Source: Candidatus Dormiibacterota bacterium
GTDB taxonomy: Bacteria > Chloroflexota > Dormibacteria > Aeolococcales > Aeolococcaceae
Direction of reading: 5' to 3'
NCBI GenBank assembly: GCA_036495095.1
Contig: DASXNK010000080.1
Location: forward strand, 1 to 32,458
Length of the DNA stretch: 32,458 bases
A program made the position numbers and the translations under genes. Below, piece by piece: positions 18,627-31,772 of the stretch. The notes below the pieces were generated by a model. It did not search any database. It saw only the letters and a list, made by a program, of their open reading frames with translations, and was not told the origin of the DNA. The number at the start of each line of letters is the position of its first letter. Position 1 is the stretch's first letter.

Positions 18627-18670
18627 GCGCCGGGGTGATCGCTGCGCACCGCGGTGGTACCGTGACCTCC

Positions 18671-19123
18671 GTGATCGAAGCCCGTGCCACCGCCACCATG
18701 CCGGTGCCGCCGGACGAGGTGTTCGCGGCGGCGACCGATCTCGAGCACGCCGACTGGCTCCCCGCCGTCCGCGGTATGCGCCGCATCGCGGGCTCGGCGC
18801 CCGGGGTGGGCTCGCGCTACGCCGTCGAGGTGGGTCTGATCGGCCGCCACCTCAGCGGCGTGCTCGTCGCCCGCGACATCGAGCCTCCGCGCCGCGCGCA
18901 GTACGTGCTCGAGGAGGGGATGGACCTCACCATCACGATCACGGTGACGCCGACCGCCGGGGGCTCGACCCTGGAGCTGGTCGCCGCCTACTCGGTGGGC
19001 GGAGGTCCGCTCTCCGGAGCGGTGGAGCGCGCCAGCGCCGGGGCGGCGCGGCGGGAGGTCGCCCGTGCCGTCGAGCAGTTCGCCGCGCGCTTCGGCCGCA
19101 AGGCCGGACGGGTGCCGGGATGA
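18671..19123 (+). CDS. SRPBCC (START-like) ligand-binding protein
   Basis: A 150-residue polyketide cyclase/dehydrase-type protein: strand (ATATMPVPPDEVFAAATD), then DLEHADWLPAVRGM, central strands (PPRRAQYVLEEG) and a long C-terminal helix ending AARREVARAVEQFAARF. These bind hydrophobic ligands in a deep pocket. The start is set at GTG 18671 because TACCGT (18658-18663) lies 7 nt upstream; GTG 18662 would fall inside that box. The stop overlaps the next gene by ATGA, so it is the first gene of a three-gene operon. Confidence 0.82.
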   Translation: MIEARATATMPVPPDEVFAAATDLEHADWLPAVRGMRRIAGSAPGVGSRYAVEVGLIGRHLSGVLVARDIEPPRRAQYVLEEGMDLTITITVTPTAGGSTLELVAAYSVGGGPLSGAVERASAGAARREVARAVEQFAARFGRKAGRVPG

Positions 19124-19740
19124 GGGACCCGGGCGTCGACACCGCCCTCGACAGCCTCGCCGCCCAGGTGCGCACCCGGCCGCCGCTGCCGCTCGAGGAG
19201 GTGGCGGACCTGCTCGGCGAGGTGCGGCGCGAGGGCGCGGGCGACGCCAGGACAGCGCTGGTGGAGCATCACCTCGGCATCGCCCTCGACGCCGCCCTCG
19301 CCCGCGCCGAGTCCGGCGTCGACGTCGGCGACCTCTACCAGGAGGGGTCGATCGCGGTGGTCACCGCGGTCGGCGAGTACGCGGCGCGCAGCGGTGAGGC
19401 CGCCGGCCTCCGCGCCTACGTGCGCCGGGTGGTCGACCTCTTCGTCGACGCCGCGGTCGAGCGCGAGCTGACCGAGCGCAGGACCGTCGAGGGCATGGTC
19501 GAGGACAGCCGCCTGCTCGACCTCGCCGAGGTGGGGATGCGCAAGCAGCTGGGCCGGGACGCCACCTCGCTCGAGCTCGCCGCGGTGCTCGGCTGGCCGC
19601 TGGAGCGGGTGACGGTGATCGGCGACCTGCTCGCCGAGGCCCGGGCGCAGAACGACGCCAGCCTGCTGCCGTTCCTCGACGATCTCGACGACATCGACGA
19701 CCTCGACGACGACGCCGAGGGTGACCGGCGCCGGGCGTGA
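19120..19740 (+). CDS. Sigma-70-like protein lacking region 4
   Basis: A 206-residue protein. Residues about 45-112 follow the sigma region 2 pattern (LVEHHLGIALDAALA, then DLYQEGSIAVVTAVGEYAAR, then LRAYVRRVVDLFVD), and about 130-175 resembles region 3 (LRKQ-like RKQLGRDATSLELAAVLGW). There is no region 4 helix-turn-helix; the protein ends in an acidic run (LPFLDDLDDIDDLDDD). It could bind core RNA polymerase without -35 recognition, so it may be a regulator, a decoy or a sigma fragment. It overlaps its neighbours by ATGA upstream and GTGA downstream. Confidence 0.78.
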   Translation: MRDPGVDTALDSLAAQVRTRPPLPLEEVADLLGEVRREGAGDARTALVEHHLGIALDAALARAESGVDVGDLYQEGSIAVVTAVGEYAARSGEAAGLRAYVRRVVDLFVDAAVERELTERRTVEGMVEDSRLLDLAEVGMRKQLGRDATSLELAAVLGWPLERVTVIGDLLAEARAQNDASLLPFLDDLDDIDDLDDDAEGDRRRA

Positions 19741-20780
19741 GCTCACTCGACGAGCAGCTGCGGCGCTGGCGCGCCGCCGGGCTGCTCGACGATGCGACGG
19801 CCGCAGCGATCCGCGGCCACGAGGCGCGGCTCGCCCGGGCCGGCGACCGGCAGGACCGCTCCCGGGTCAGCCTCCAGGAGGTGATCGCCTACGCCGGCGT
19901 GGCCCTCGCGCTCGCCGGCGGCGCCCTCTTCGTCAGCCTCCACCGCGACGACCTCGGCCTCCCCGGGCGGCTCGCCGTCTACGTGCTGGCGACGGCCGCC
20001 GCGCTGGTCGCCGCCGTCACGCTCCGGCGCGGCGGCGCGGCGGGCAGCCGGGCGGCGGCGGGATGCGTGATGGTGTCGATCCTCGGGGTCGGTCTCGCGA
20101 TCGGCGACGCCGCCACCGCCGGCGGCTGGTTCACCGTCCTCCATCACCATCCCGGGTACGGTCCCTACGCGCCCGCATACGACGAGGTCGACCACAACGG
20201 CAACGCCGCCCTCGCCCTCGCCGCGGTCGCCCTGCTCGCCCTCGCCGCCACCTGGTGGACGCGCAGCGGGCTGCTCGCGCTGGTGCTCGCCGGCGCCACC
20301 TTCGGCGCCACCTTCACCGAGCTCGCCTCGCGGCACGCCGACGGCACCGCCGTGGCCCTGGTCGCCTGCATCCCCGGTGCCGCGCTGGGTGCGGCCTCGT
20401 TCACCCACCGGCTGCGCGGCGACCTCGCCGGCGAGGTGCTCCGCTTCTTGGGGACCCTGCTCCCGGCGATCATCCCGCTCTTCGCGGACGGGCCGCTGGT
20501 CGCCCCGCTCACCGGGCTCGCCGGGGCGATCAGCGCGGCGGCGCTGGTGGCCTCGCCGGCCCTGAACAGCAACGCCCTGGCGGTGGCCGGCGGCCTTGGC
20601 CTCTTCGGCCTGGTGGTCGACGTCGGGGTGCGCTGGTTCTCCGGCCCGCTCGGGCTGCCCCTGGTGCTGATCGGCGCCGGGGTGGCGCTGATCGGCGTCG
20701 CCGCCCTGATCCAGCGGATCGTCAGCGGGAACCGCACCCGCGCCGCCGGCAACGACGCGGCCGCCCAACCCACCGACTAA
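19737..20780 (+). CDS. DUF2157-like polytopic membrane protein
   Basis: A 347-residue protein. An N-terminal soluble helix pair (LDEQLRRWRAAGLLDDATAAAI) is followed by roughly ten hydrophobic segments from residue 46 to 333, the layout of DUF2157 membrane proteins. A short His/Tyr-rich loop (LHHHPGYGPYAPAYDEVDHNG) lies around 137-157. The GTG start at 19737 overlaps the sigma-like stop (GTGA). It is the last gene of the operon, and its TAA shares the sequence CTAA with the dinB stop on the other strand. Function unknown. Confidence 0.82.
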   Translation: MSSLDEQLRRWRAAGLLDDATAAAIRGHEARLARAGDRQDRSRVSLQEVIAYAGVALALAGGALFVSLHRDDLGLPGRLAVYVLATAAALVAAVTLRRGGAAGSRAAAGCVMVSILGVGLAIGDAATAGGWFTVLHHHPGYGPYAPAYDEVDHNGNAALALAAVALLALAATWWTRSGLLALVLAGATFGATFTELASRHADGTAVALVACIPGAALGAASFTHRLRGDLAGEVLRFLGTLLPAIIPLFADGPLVAPLTGLAGAISAAALVASPALNSNALAVAGGLGLFGLVVDVGVRWFSGPLGLPLVLIGAGVALIGVAALIQRIVSGNRTRAAGNDAAAQPTD

Positions 20781-21990: not shown

Positions 21991-22668
21991 TCAGACCGCG
22001 GGCGGAAGCTCCCGCCGCCGGCGGCGCCGGGGAATCCGCAGCGGCTCCTCGGAGAACTCGTCGTAGACCTCGGTGAAGCGGCGCCGGGCCCGGAAGAGCA
22101 GCGACTCGACCGCGGAGACCGAGAGGTTCATGCGCTCGGCGATGTGCGGGTAGTCCATGCCCTCGAGCTCGCGCAGCGCGAGGATGCGGCGGTAGCGCTC
22201 GGGCAGGTGCTCGATGACCCGCACGATGAGCAGCCGGATCTCGCGGCGCTCGGCGGCGCGCTCCGGGTGGCCCTCGTGGTAGCCCTCGAGCGCCCGGTGC
22301 AGCTCCTCCGCGGGGGAGGCCTGCTCCTGATAGTGCTGCATGGTGCGCAGCCGGCGGTGCTCGTCGATGGCGAGGTTGGTGGTGGTGCGGTGCAGCCAGG
22401 CACGCACCCGGATCTCACCCTGGTGGGAGAGCAGCTGGCGGGCCAGCCGCAGGAAGGCCTCCTGGGCGATGTCCTCGGCGCGGTGCGGGTCGATGATGAT
22501 CCGCCGCGCCAGCATCTCGACGTAGCGGTGGTGGTCGCGGTAGATCGACTCGAAGGCGAAGACGTCGCCGGCGCGGAAGGCGCTCACCAGCGCGGCGTCG
22601 GGGTCGCCGGGCTCGGCGTCGTGGTCGGGCCAGCCGGCCTGGTGCGAGGACGAGGCGACCGCGCTCAC
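21991..22668 (-). CDS. RNA polymerase sigma factor, ECF-type (regions 2 and 4)
   Basis: A 225-residue sigma factor. Region 2 spans about 35-100 (FESIYRDHHRYVEMLARRII, then DIAQEAFLRLARQL and WLHRTTTNLAIDEHRR). Region 4 is about 150-205 (LPERYRRILALRELEGMDYP, then the HTH IAERMNLSVSAVESLLFRARRRF). A strongly basic tail (PRRRRRREL) follows. The GTG at 22668 overlaps the stop of the XRE gene (GTGA), which fixes the start and couples translation. No anti-sigma factor gene is adjacent; the HTH protein upstream may take the regulatory role. Confidence 0.92.
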   Translation of the reverse strand: MSAVASSSHQAGWPDHDAEPGDPDAALVSAFRAGDVFAFESIYRDHHRYVEMLARRIIIDPHRAEDIAQEAFLRLARQLLSHQGEIRVRAWLHRTTTNLAIDEHRRLRTMQHYQEQASPAEELHRALEGYHEGHPERAAERREIRLLIVRVIEHLPERYRRILALRELEGMDYPHIAERMNLSVSAVESLLFRARRRFTEVYDEFSEEPLRIPRRRRRRELPPAV

Positions 22669-22952
22669 ACCGAGGAGGTCCCGGCCTCGGCCGCGGGGGC
22701 GGCGGGGCGCCGCGAGGCGAGCCACTCCTCGATGTCCGCTTCCCGGAGGTAGCCGGCGGCGATCAGCAGCTCGGTGTAGCCGACACCGAGGTGGGGCGCG
22801 GCGCGGCGGAGCACCCAGGGCGGCGGGTTCTCCTTGTTCTTGTTGATCGCCTGGTAGAAGTAGATCTGGTTCAGATCGCAGAGCAGCGCCAGGCGATGGA
22901 GGGAGATGCCACGCTCGCGGCACCTCTCCTTCAGGTAATCGCGGAAGTCCAC
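22665..22952 (-). CDS. Small XRE-like HTH regulator paired with the sigma factor
   Basis: A 95-residue protein with one helix-turn-helix domain: FRDYLKERCRERGISLHRLA, then LLCDLNQIYFYQAINKNKEN and a helical C-terminus (YTELLIAAGYLREADIEEWL). The start is GTG 22952, with AAAGGGAGGG on the minus strand just upstream; the in-frame ATG at 23015 lies before the ribosome site and its N-terminal extension looks non-coding. It is the first gene of a two-gene unit with the ECF-type sigma gene (4-nt overlap). It probably regulates the shared promoter. Confidence 0.8.
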   Translation of the reverse strand: MDFRDYLKERCRERGISLHRLALLCDLNQIYFYQAINKNKENPPPWVLRRAAPHLGVGYTELLIAAGYLREADIEEWLASRRPAAPAAEAGTSSV

Positions 22953-23004
22953 GAGCCCTCCCTTTCCCCCGACCGCGCCCGCAGCGGGTCTGAACCGGAT
23001 CCCG

Positions 23005-23033
23005 AGTATAGCCATCGCCTAAGAAGGCGTCGG
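23005..23033 (-). promoter_or_regulatory. Promoter of the XRE-sigma pair with a spacer palindrome
   Basis: On the minus strand, TATACT (23010-23005) is a good -10; CCGACG at 17-bp spacing (23033-23028) is a weak -35. CGCCT-AAGA-AGGCG (plus strand 23016-23029), a perfect 5-bp dyad, fills the spacer and is a candidate operator. Confidence 0.5.
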
Positions 23034-28328: not shown

Positions 28329-28888
28329 GCGCCGGCGGGGGCGGGGAACTCGCTGCGCCGGAAGAGGGCGTGGAGGGGCAGGCCGGCGGCGCTGAGCGCG
28401 GCCTCGCCACCCTCCTCGCGGTCGACGAGGGCGAGCGCCTCGACCACCTCGGCGCCGGTGCCGCGCACCTGCTCCAGGGCGGTGAGGAAGCCGGCGCCGG
28501 TGGTGACCACGTCGTCGACCAGCAGGCAGCGGTCGTGGGGGCCGAGCGAGGGGCCCTCGATCGCCCGGCCGGTGCCGTGCTGCTTGGTCTCCTTGCGGAC
28601 GATGAAGGCGCGCAGCGGGATCGGGTCGGTGCCGCTCAGCGCCACCACCCCGGCGGCGATCGGGTCGGCGCCCAGGGTGAGGCCGCCCACCGCGCTCACC
28701 TCGAGCTCGCGGCAGCGGTCGAGGATGAGGCGGGAGGCGAGGTAGAGCCCCCGGCCCTCCAGGGTCACCTGCTTGCCGTCGAAGTAGAAGTCGCTGCGGC
28801 GGCCGCTGCTGAGCAGGAAGTCGCCGTAGCGGAAGGACCGGCGGTGGAGCAGCGCCTGGAGCTCGGCCCGGAGCGCCTCGCCGGTCAC
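28325..28888 (-). CDS. pyrE: Orotate phosphoribosyltransferase
   Basis: A 187-residue pyrimidine enzyme: orotate plus PRPP gives OMP. The PRPP loop is LLVDDVVTTGAG (about 121-132), the N-terminal part has DFLLSSGRRSDFYFDGK, and the flexible loop is RKETKQHGTG. The GTG at 28888 overlaps the gcvPB stop (GTGA), so it is translated from the glycine cleavage transcript. No other pyr gene is adjacent, which is an unusual setting for pyrE. Confidence 0.95.
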   Translation of the reverse strand: MTGEALRAELQALLHRRSFRYGDFLLSSGRRSDFYFDGKQVTLEGRGLYLASRLILDRCRELEVSAVGGLTLGADPIAAGVVALSGTDPIPLRAFIVRKETKQHGTGRAIEGPSLGPHDRCLLVDDVVTTGAGFLTALEQVRGTGAEVVEALALVDREEGGEAALSAAGLPLHALFRRSEFPAPAGA

Positions 28889-30404
28889 GTGCTGCTCGTG
28901 TCCGGGGACCAGCGCAGCACCGGCCGCCGCGCCGCCTGCACCTCGTCGACGCGCTCGACCGGGGCGTTGTGCGGCGCCGCCTGGACGAACGCGAGGTCGG
29001 CCTCGGCCTCGTCGACGATGGTCGCGAGGATGTCGGCGAGCCCGTCGAGGCTGCGCCGCGACTCGGTCTCGGTGGGCTCGAACATCATCGCCTCGGGCAC
29101 CGTGGTGGGGAAGTACACGGTCGGCGGGTAGACGCCGAAGTCGATCATCCGCTTGGCCACGTCCATCGCCCTCAGGCCGGGGACGCGGCCGCCGCGGGTC
29201 GTGGCCACGAACTCGTGCATGGTGGGGGCGTCGACGGCCATCGCGAAGAGGCCGCGCAGCCGGGCCTGCAGGTAGCGGGCGTTGAGCACCGCGTCCCGGG
29301 CCACCTGGGGGAGGGTGTCGCCGTAGGCGCGGATGTAGGCGTAGGCGCGGACGAGCATGCCCACGTTGCCGTGGAAGGCGCGCACCTTGCCGATGCTGTG
29401 GGGGCGGTCGTCGTCGAGGAGGAAGCGGTCACCGTCCCTCTCGACCGTGGGTGAGGGCAGGAGGTCGACCAGCGCCGGCGCGACCCCCACCGGGCCGGCC
29501 CCGGGGCCGCCGCCGCCGTGGGGGGTCGAGAAGGTCTTGTGGAGGTTGAGGTGGACCACGTCGAACCCCATGTCGCCGGGCCGGGCGATGCCCACCAGGG
29601 CGTTGAGATTGGCGCCGTCGTAGTAGAGGAGCGCACCCGCCTCGTGGGCGGCCTCGGCGATCTCGAGGATCTCGGTCTCGAAGACCCCGAGGGTGTTGGG
29701 GTTGGTCATCATCACCGCGGCGGTGGTGCCGTCGAGGTGGCGGCGGAGGTCGGCGACGTCGACGGTGCCCTGGGCGGTGCTGCGCAGCGTCACCACCTCG
29801 AGCCCGCTCATCCCCGCCGAGGCGGGATTGGTGCCGTGGGCGCTGTCGGGGACGAGCACCCGGGTGCGCCCGGAGTCGCCGCGGGCGGCGTGGTGGGCCT
29901 GGATCATCCGCAGGCCGGTCCACTCGCCGTGGGCGCCGGCGGCGGGCTGCAGCGACATCCGCGCCATCCCGGTGATCGCCGCGAGCAGCCGCTCCAGCTC
30001 CCACATCAGCTCGAGCGTGCCCTGGACGTCGGCGGCGTCCTGGTAGGGGTGGAGGTCGGCGAAGCCGTCGAGCCCGGCCAGGTGCTCGTCGACGATCGGG
30101 TTGTACTTCATGGTGCAGGAGCCCAGCGGGTACATCCCCTGGTGGAGGTTGTGGTTGCGCCGGGCGAGGCGGCCGAGGTGACGGGCGAGCACCGGCTCGG
30201 CCACCGCGGGGATCGCGGCGGGGGCGCGGCGGAGCAGCCGCGACGGCAGCAGCTGGTCGAGCGGCGGCACCGGCACGCCGGCGGCGGGCACCCGGGGGGA
30301 GGCGTCGAGGTCACCGCCGAGCTCGAAGACGACCGGGTCGGCACCCGCCCAGGCGGCCTCCGGCGGCGAGCCGCCGGCGGGACGGGCGTGCCCGTTGCCG
30401 GAGC

Positions 30405-30408
<4 letters not shown>
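28885..30408 (-). CDS. gcvPB: Glycine dehydrogenase (decarboxylating) subunit 2
   Basis: A 507-residue PLP subunit of the P-protein. The Schiff-base Lys lies in HLNLHKTFSTPHGGGGPG. Other family segments include GMYPLGSCTMKYNP, QPAAGAHGEWTGL and PDSAHGTNPASAGM. With GcvPA it decarboxylates glycine and passes the aminomethyl group to lipoyl-GcvH. The N-terminal 25 residues are an extra Gly/Pro-rich stretch. The ATG at 30408 overlaps the gcvPA stop (ATGA). gcvT and gcvH are not in the window. Confidence 0.97.

Positions 30409-31772
<1,364 letters not shown>

Follow-up and report, generated by a model that had tools for sequence, protein, structure and literature searches.

A sigma-70-like protein without region 4, retained across one class of Chloroflexota, as a possible pseudo-sigma of core RNA polymerase

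Introduction

What can a protein do for its host when it resembles the central part of a sigma-70 factor and stops before region 4? The question is raised by an open reading frame (ORF) located at 19120-19740 on the forward strand of the window, the name given here to the whole stretch of 32,458 nucleotides that was analysed. This ORF, which encodes a 206-aa protein with a very acidic C-terminus as initially described, is packed between two other ORFs of the same strand. Upstream, at 18662-19123, lies a gene for a 153-aa SRPBCC protein (Polyketide_cyc2 / Rv0910-like) that starts with the GTG at 18662, an alternative start being the GTG at 18671. Its identity is firm (PF10604, E=1.7e-17), and it also matches the NCBIfam Rv0910-family model, under the cut-off of that model (E=6e-12). 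Downstream, at 19737-20780, lies a gene for a 347-aa DUF2157-like polytopic membrane protein, an assignment that is weak (PF09925, E=8.5e-6, under the Pfam cut-off). The coupling of the sigma-like gene to both neighbours, which had been noticed from the start, is seen as 4-bp stop/start overlaps on either side, ATGA at 19120-19123 and GTGA at 19737-19740.

The first-pass annotation of this DNA proposed that the three proteins form a set that senses a ligand or a membrane state and modulates core RNA polymerase. To our knowledge, truncated or degenerate sigma proteins have so far been described in phages, as one two-piece factor of Bacillus and as one two-component decoy. Nothing fitting the family described below was found in open-access papers on sigma factors without region 4.

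Homology to primary sigma factors and absence of region 4

Taken alone, the 206-aa protein matches Sigma70_r2 with E=0.0013 (residues 47-102, encoded at 19258-19425, forward strand) and Sigma70_r3 with E=0.017 (residues 140-165, at 19537-19614, forward strand), both under the Pfam gathering score. It also matches the NCBIfam primary sigma models (E=8e-7) and SigB/RpoD in the PDB (E about 1e-5). The homology becomes firm because it can be built at the level of the family, the lone protein being sub-threshold. Fifty-two members, all of 185-220 aa, were taken from the matches in related genomes and from two 'Chloroflexi bacterium' MAGs, CF_165 and CF_170, and 29 of them were used to build a profile (alignment A1). 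Sigma70_r3 is matched by 24 and Sigma70_r2 by 19 of these 29 members (E<=0.01). Thus, the search for these two Pfam profiles that had been suggested as a check falls below the cut-off for the single protein but succeeds for the family. Furthermore, the family profile matches primary sigma factors of the PDB with E down to 2.1e-22 over profile positions 31-170, a homology that spans regions 1.2/2.1 to 3.1, and a profile-profile comparison with sigma factors of the same genomes (hhalign) gives E=1e-17. Within the region 3-like segment, L157 and W159 are invariant. At the sequence level, the 206-aa ORF is a true sigma-70 homologue. An AF2 model of the protein, made from 3 sequences, is all-helical with a pLDDT of 68.8 and an unreliable domain arrangement; when this medium-confidence model was used for a Foldseek search, the matches listed were all sigma factors (best E=7.6e-5, TM about 0.3).

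The absence of region 4, as initially proposed, holds throughout the family: none of the 29 members matches this region, and none is encoded beside any family locus when searched with the region 4s of the class's own sigma factors, an ECF factor and a stand-alone region 4 protein. Ordinary sigma factors, used as positive controls in this locus search, were detected. The sole region-4 match near family loci is a separate ECF gene, 1.3-2.3 kb off, in the genus of the window. No other recurrent domain, a receiver domain included, was recognised in the 185-220 aa of the family. An artefact, a pseudogene or a frameshifted sigma gene was considered and rejected, as no region 4 occurs downstream in any frame, dN is lower than dS (see next section) and members from four families of the class (f1 to f4) all stop at the same point.

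Distribution and retention

The search of related genomes with the 206-aa protein gave matches in 57 of 61, the few weakest being ordinary sigma factors. With profile A1, exactly one match with E<=5.6e-47 was obtained in 100 of the 110 genomes of the class. When only good genomes of the class are considered, 36 out of 37 carry the gene, the missing one being a genome of 1.5 Mb, and a phylum-wide draw gave the gene in 24 of 25 class members. In the same draw, 176 sampled genomes from other Chloroflexota classes yielded no member, solely matches of the level of ordinary sigma factors (E>=6.5e-25). This gap of more than twenty orders of magnitude indicates that, within the sampled genomes, the family is restricted to one class. 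A pattern-based scan of genome contigs, other phyla included, retrieved two members of the class and one ordinary sigma factor.

An origin from a phage or a plasmid was also considered and rejected, since no convincing copy was found on plasmids, phages or viral contigs. The plasmid search gave no match to the family, the viral-contig search gave no relative of it, and the best phage match is weak and partial (29% over 86 aa, in an unannotated phage). In all nine pairs of members tested, dN is lower than dS, with dN/dS from about 0.07 to 0.6. This, together with the single-copy retention in 100 of 110 genomes, argues that the resemblance to sigma factors is more than chance. The gene appears to have been fixed early, in single copy, in one class of soil Chloroflexota.

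A core-binding motif kept and a promoter-reading surface lost

The most conserved seven-residue stretch of the family is DLYQEGS (residues 71-77, encoded at 19330-19350, forward strand), which corresponds to the region 2.2 motif DLIQEGN (403-409) of sigma70. Residues D403, Q406 and E407 of sigma70 region 2.2 touch the beta' clamp helices of core RNA polymerase. Their equivalents are kept: D71 is Asp in 51 of the 52 members, Q74 is Gln in all 52, and E75 is Glu in 46 and Asp in the 6 others. L72 and G76 are also kept (50/52 and 49/52). The core-binding residues of region 2.2 are thus present in the family, at least as read from the alignment.

The adjacent block shows the opposite pattern. Regions 2.3/2.4 (residues 95-113, encoded at 19402-19458, forward strand) are degenerate: no member has Trp at the equivalents of W433 and W434 (0/52 each), the equivalent of T440 is Asp in 31 of the 52, R436 and Q437 are not kept, and R451 and H455 are mostly not kept. 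The family does not carry the -10 recognition and melting set formed by W433, W434, Q437, T440, Y425 and T429. The lost -10 residues are invariant or nearly so in ten full-length sigma factors of the class. The net charge of the 2.3/2.4 block is -0.75 in the family versus +3.1 in full-length sigma factors, and identity to the sigma consensus falls from 42% in region 2.2 to 10-12% in regions 2.3 and 2.4. The initial reading of kept regions 2 and 3 is therefore only partly right: region 3 and the 2.2 core motif stand, but the promoter residues of 2.3/2.4 are lost.

Beyond region 3, a conserved motif, [YH]DxE(L/I)xxYLDD, with an invariant Asp (D179), precedes the acidic tail. In the window it reads NDASLLPFLDDLDD (residues 178-191, at 19651-19692, forward strand). 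A global profile alignment, which is forced, sets it on the sigma70 finger, DEDSHLGDFIED. In a motif scan of 11 sigma factors, the region 3.2 site was among the two best-ranked in 10, although not always at the top. This motif is likely, albeit tentatively and from sequence comparison, the equivalent of the sigma finger (region 3.2). The tail that follows (19693-19740 with the stop codon, forward strand) differs in length and sequence among members; the mean net charge of the last 20 residues is -7.2 across the family. Hence, of the acidic tail said to take the place of region 4, the lack of region 4 was confirmed, but the first part of the segment taken as tail aligns, tentatively, with region 3.2.

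A candidate pseudo-sigma and its rivals

From the homology, the truncation, the retention and the residue pattern, we infer core binding, competition and an effect on transcription. The protein would be a relative of primary-type sigma-70 that ends after region 3.2 and whose promoter-reading surface is gone. Its intact region 2.2 would most likely bind the beta' clamp helices of core RNA polymerase, while the C-terminal part, from region 3 through the finger-like motif to the acidic tail, would lie in or near the main channel. Such a protein would neither read nor melt the -10 element and, having no region 4, would be unable to contact either the -35 element or the beta flap. Since -10 reading and melting and region 4 are all missing, it should not start transcription. 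It could act as a competitor of sigma factors for core binding or, alternatively, hold or modulate core as a sigma antagonist, a storage factor or an elongation-phase factor. With moderate confidence, we favour this pseudo-sigma, which would bind core RNA polymerase and compete with sigma or modulate core, with no reading of promoters. A narrower form, which we put forward more tentatively, is a chromosomal pseudo-sigma, common to the class, that would sit on core where sigma binds and serve the cell as an in-built antagonist of sigma or as a storage factor for core enzyme.

Several observations weigh against the pseudo-sigma. Within and next to region 2.2, the equivalent of N409 is Ser or Thr and that of L402 is not kept. 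The genome of the window has about 32 intact sigma factors, and thus other ways to control core. The finger assignment depends on the forced alignment and on the motif scan mentioned above, and the AF2 model, with so few sequences behind it, has a domain arrangement that cannot be trusted. Finally, binding of an anti-sigma factor could also explain the conservation of region 2.2, as region 2 is a usual target of anti-sigma factors.

This last point leads to a decoy, in which the protein would mimic a sigma factor and titrate an anti-sigma factor, thus freeing the real sigma. In PhyR, NepR is sequestered by a sigma-like domain whose regions for interaction with promoter and core are degenerate (PMC8103513). 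The family shares with PhyR the loss of promoter-reading residues in a protein that keeps sigma homology and should not initiate alone. However, PhyR, an alphaproteobacterial protein, mimics an ECF sigma factor and has a receiver domain, whereas the family has no such domain and the sigma mimicked would be of the primary type. The decoy fits less well because the core-binding region is reported to be degenerate in PhyR (PMC8103513), yet it is the best conserved part of the family. Moreover, no anti-sigma gene was recognised as a neighbour in either of the two genomic settings described below (SRPBCC in f1, gcv in f2-f4). A decoy therefore seems unlikely.

The protein could also be one half of a split sigma factor, whose region 4 would be supplied by a separate protein, as with RsoA of SigO-RsoA in Bacillus subtilis (PMC8103513) or T4 gp55 with gp33 (PMC2988020). 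Like RsoA, the family has sigma region 2 on a protein without region 4; unlike RsoA, which has a region-4 partner and activates promoters (PMC8103513), it has region 3 and no conserved partner was found. Like gp55, a phage late sigma factor, its members are small and divergent; they have a segment that resembles region 2 but lack region 4. However, gp55 binds the sliding clamp and recognises late promoters through a -10-like TATA box (PMC2988020), while the matching residues are gone in the family, and no phage or plasmid copy of the family was found. The genome of the window does encode a 92-aa protein with a stand-alone region 4 of the primary type (G000:C32:1029-1307, forward strand, locus L094; PF04545, 56 bits). 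None of the 60 other genomes gave a recognisable stand-alone orthologue of it; the further matches there are of the level of ordinary sigma region 4, most of them in long open frames. The candidate partner is thus confined to one genome, whereas the sigma-like gene occurs in nearly all genomes of the class. This region 4 protein may be a relic, or a partner peculiar to that genome. A conserved stand-alone region 4 partner was rejected, as none was found in relatives or next to the gene, although a gp33-like partner devoid of sigma homology would escape such a search for region 4. A split sigma factor appears quite improbable.

Compared with primary and group 2 sigma-70 factors (RpoD, SigA, HrdB, SigB, RpoS), the putative pseudo-sigma shares colinear regions 1.2/2.1-3.1, the 2.2 motif and possibly region 3.2, but lacks region 1.1, region 4 and the -10 recognition and melting residues. 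If the pseudo-sigma is real, a chromosomal gene present once in nearly every genome of the class encodes a sigma derivative in which binding to core is uncoupled from the reading of promoters. It could then represent a novel means of adjusting how much RNA polymerase is free or active in a soil lineage that is for the most part uncultured. The class-wide retention of a protein in which these two surfaces are separated raises the interest of the family; the absence of a sensor module lowers it.

Genomic settings of the sigma-like gene

In family f1, that of the window, every one of the 26 loci for which upstream sequence is available (25 if a contig included twice is counted once) has the SRPBCC gene directly before the sigma-like gene, and in 18 of the 26 pairs a start codon is available at a 4-bp overlap. 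The usual order is cysS, a DAHP synthase-like gene (reverse strand), GNAT, SRPBCC, sigma-like and dinB/PolIV (reverse strand). The DUF2157 gene was absent from the sigma-like locus in every relative inspected. For example, in two congeners dinB/PolIV comes immediately after the sigma-like gene, without DUF2157. Relatives of the DUF2157 protein occur in 3 of the 61 genomes, that of the window included. As it is present at the locus solely in the window genome, the DUF2157 protein is probably not part of the system. The conserved SRPBCC/sigma/DUF2157 neighbourhood expected from the window thus extends, within f1, to the SRPBCC gene but not to DUF2157.

In families f2-f4, the setting is different. 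There, gcvT lies directly downstream of the sigma-like gene in 24 of 27 loci, in a run gcvT-gcvH-gcvPA-gcvPB whose gene identities were confirmed by NCBIfam in one locus, and the sigma-like gene overlaps gcvT by 4 bp in at least 10 loci. Since the settings differ between families, SRPBCC in f1 and gcv in f2-f4, the role of the sigma-like protein is independent of SRPBCC or DUF2157 as a neighbour. A ligand or membrane sensor linked to these two proteins and controlling RNA polymerase would account for the way both neighbours overlap the sigma-like gene by 4 bp in the window and for the constant SRPBCC-sigma pair of f1 with its frequent overlap. However, DUF2157 is peculiar to the window locus and three other families have gcvT instead, which leaves such a sensor a low probability. 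The sensing trio with a membrane protein is therefore not supported; an action on core RNA polymerase remains plausible, judging from the retained 2.2 motif, but not as part of that trio.

The gcv genes suggest another role, that of a regulator tied to glycine cleavage or one-carbon metabolism and unrelated to global control of RNA polymerase. Besides the frequent gcvT neighbour and its overlaps in f2-f4, gcvPA, gcvPB and pyrE are found in the window at 28340-31772 (reverse strand), some 9 kb away from the sigma-like gene; in four other f1 genomes the gcvPA-gcvPB-pyrE cluster lies within about 7-14 kb of it. This proximity supports positional orthology between the f1 gene and those of f2-f4. 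However, the sigma-like gene is unlinked to gcvT in genera g17 and g18, there is no coupling in f1, and the co-location may reflect mere shared transcription. Such a metabolic regulator is very improbable.

Other features of these loci can be mentioned. In an example from f2-f4 (locus L062, 3733-8712), the sigma-like gene heads the gcvT-gcvH-gcvPA-gcvPB run. The sigma-like gene and the gcv run are divergent from a glucose-6-phosphate dehydrogenase gene in f2 and, according to a reading of the sequence, from a stomatin/NfeD-like gene set in f3 and f4. The window also carries, at 21991-22740 (reverse strand), a gene beside PolIV for an ECF sigma factor of the ordinary kind, which has both region 2 and region 4; among the loci inspected, this gene was seen next to PolIV only in the genus of the window. 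At 22665-23015 (reverse strand), it encodes a small helix-turn-helix-like protein (DFRDYLKERCRERGISLHRLALLCDLNQIYFYQ...NPPPWVLRRAAPHLGV) without NCBIfam match, which recurs beside PolIV in the f1 loci inspected.
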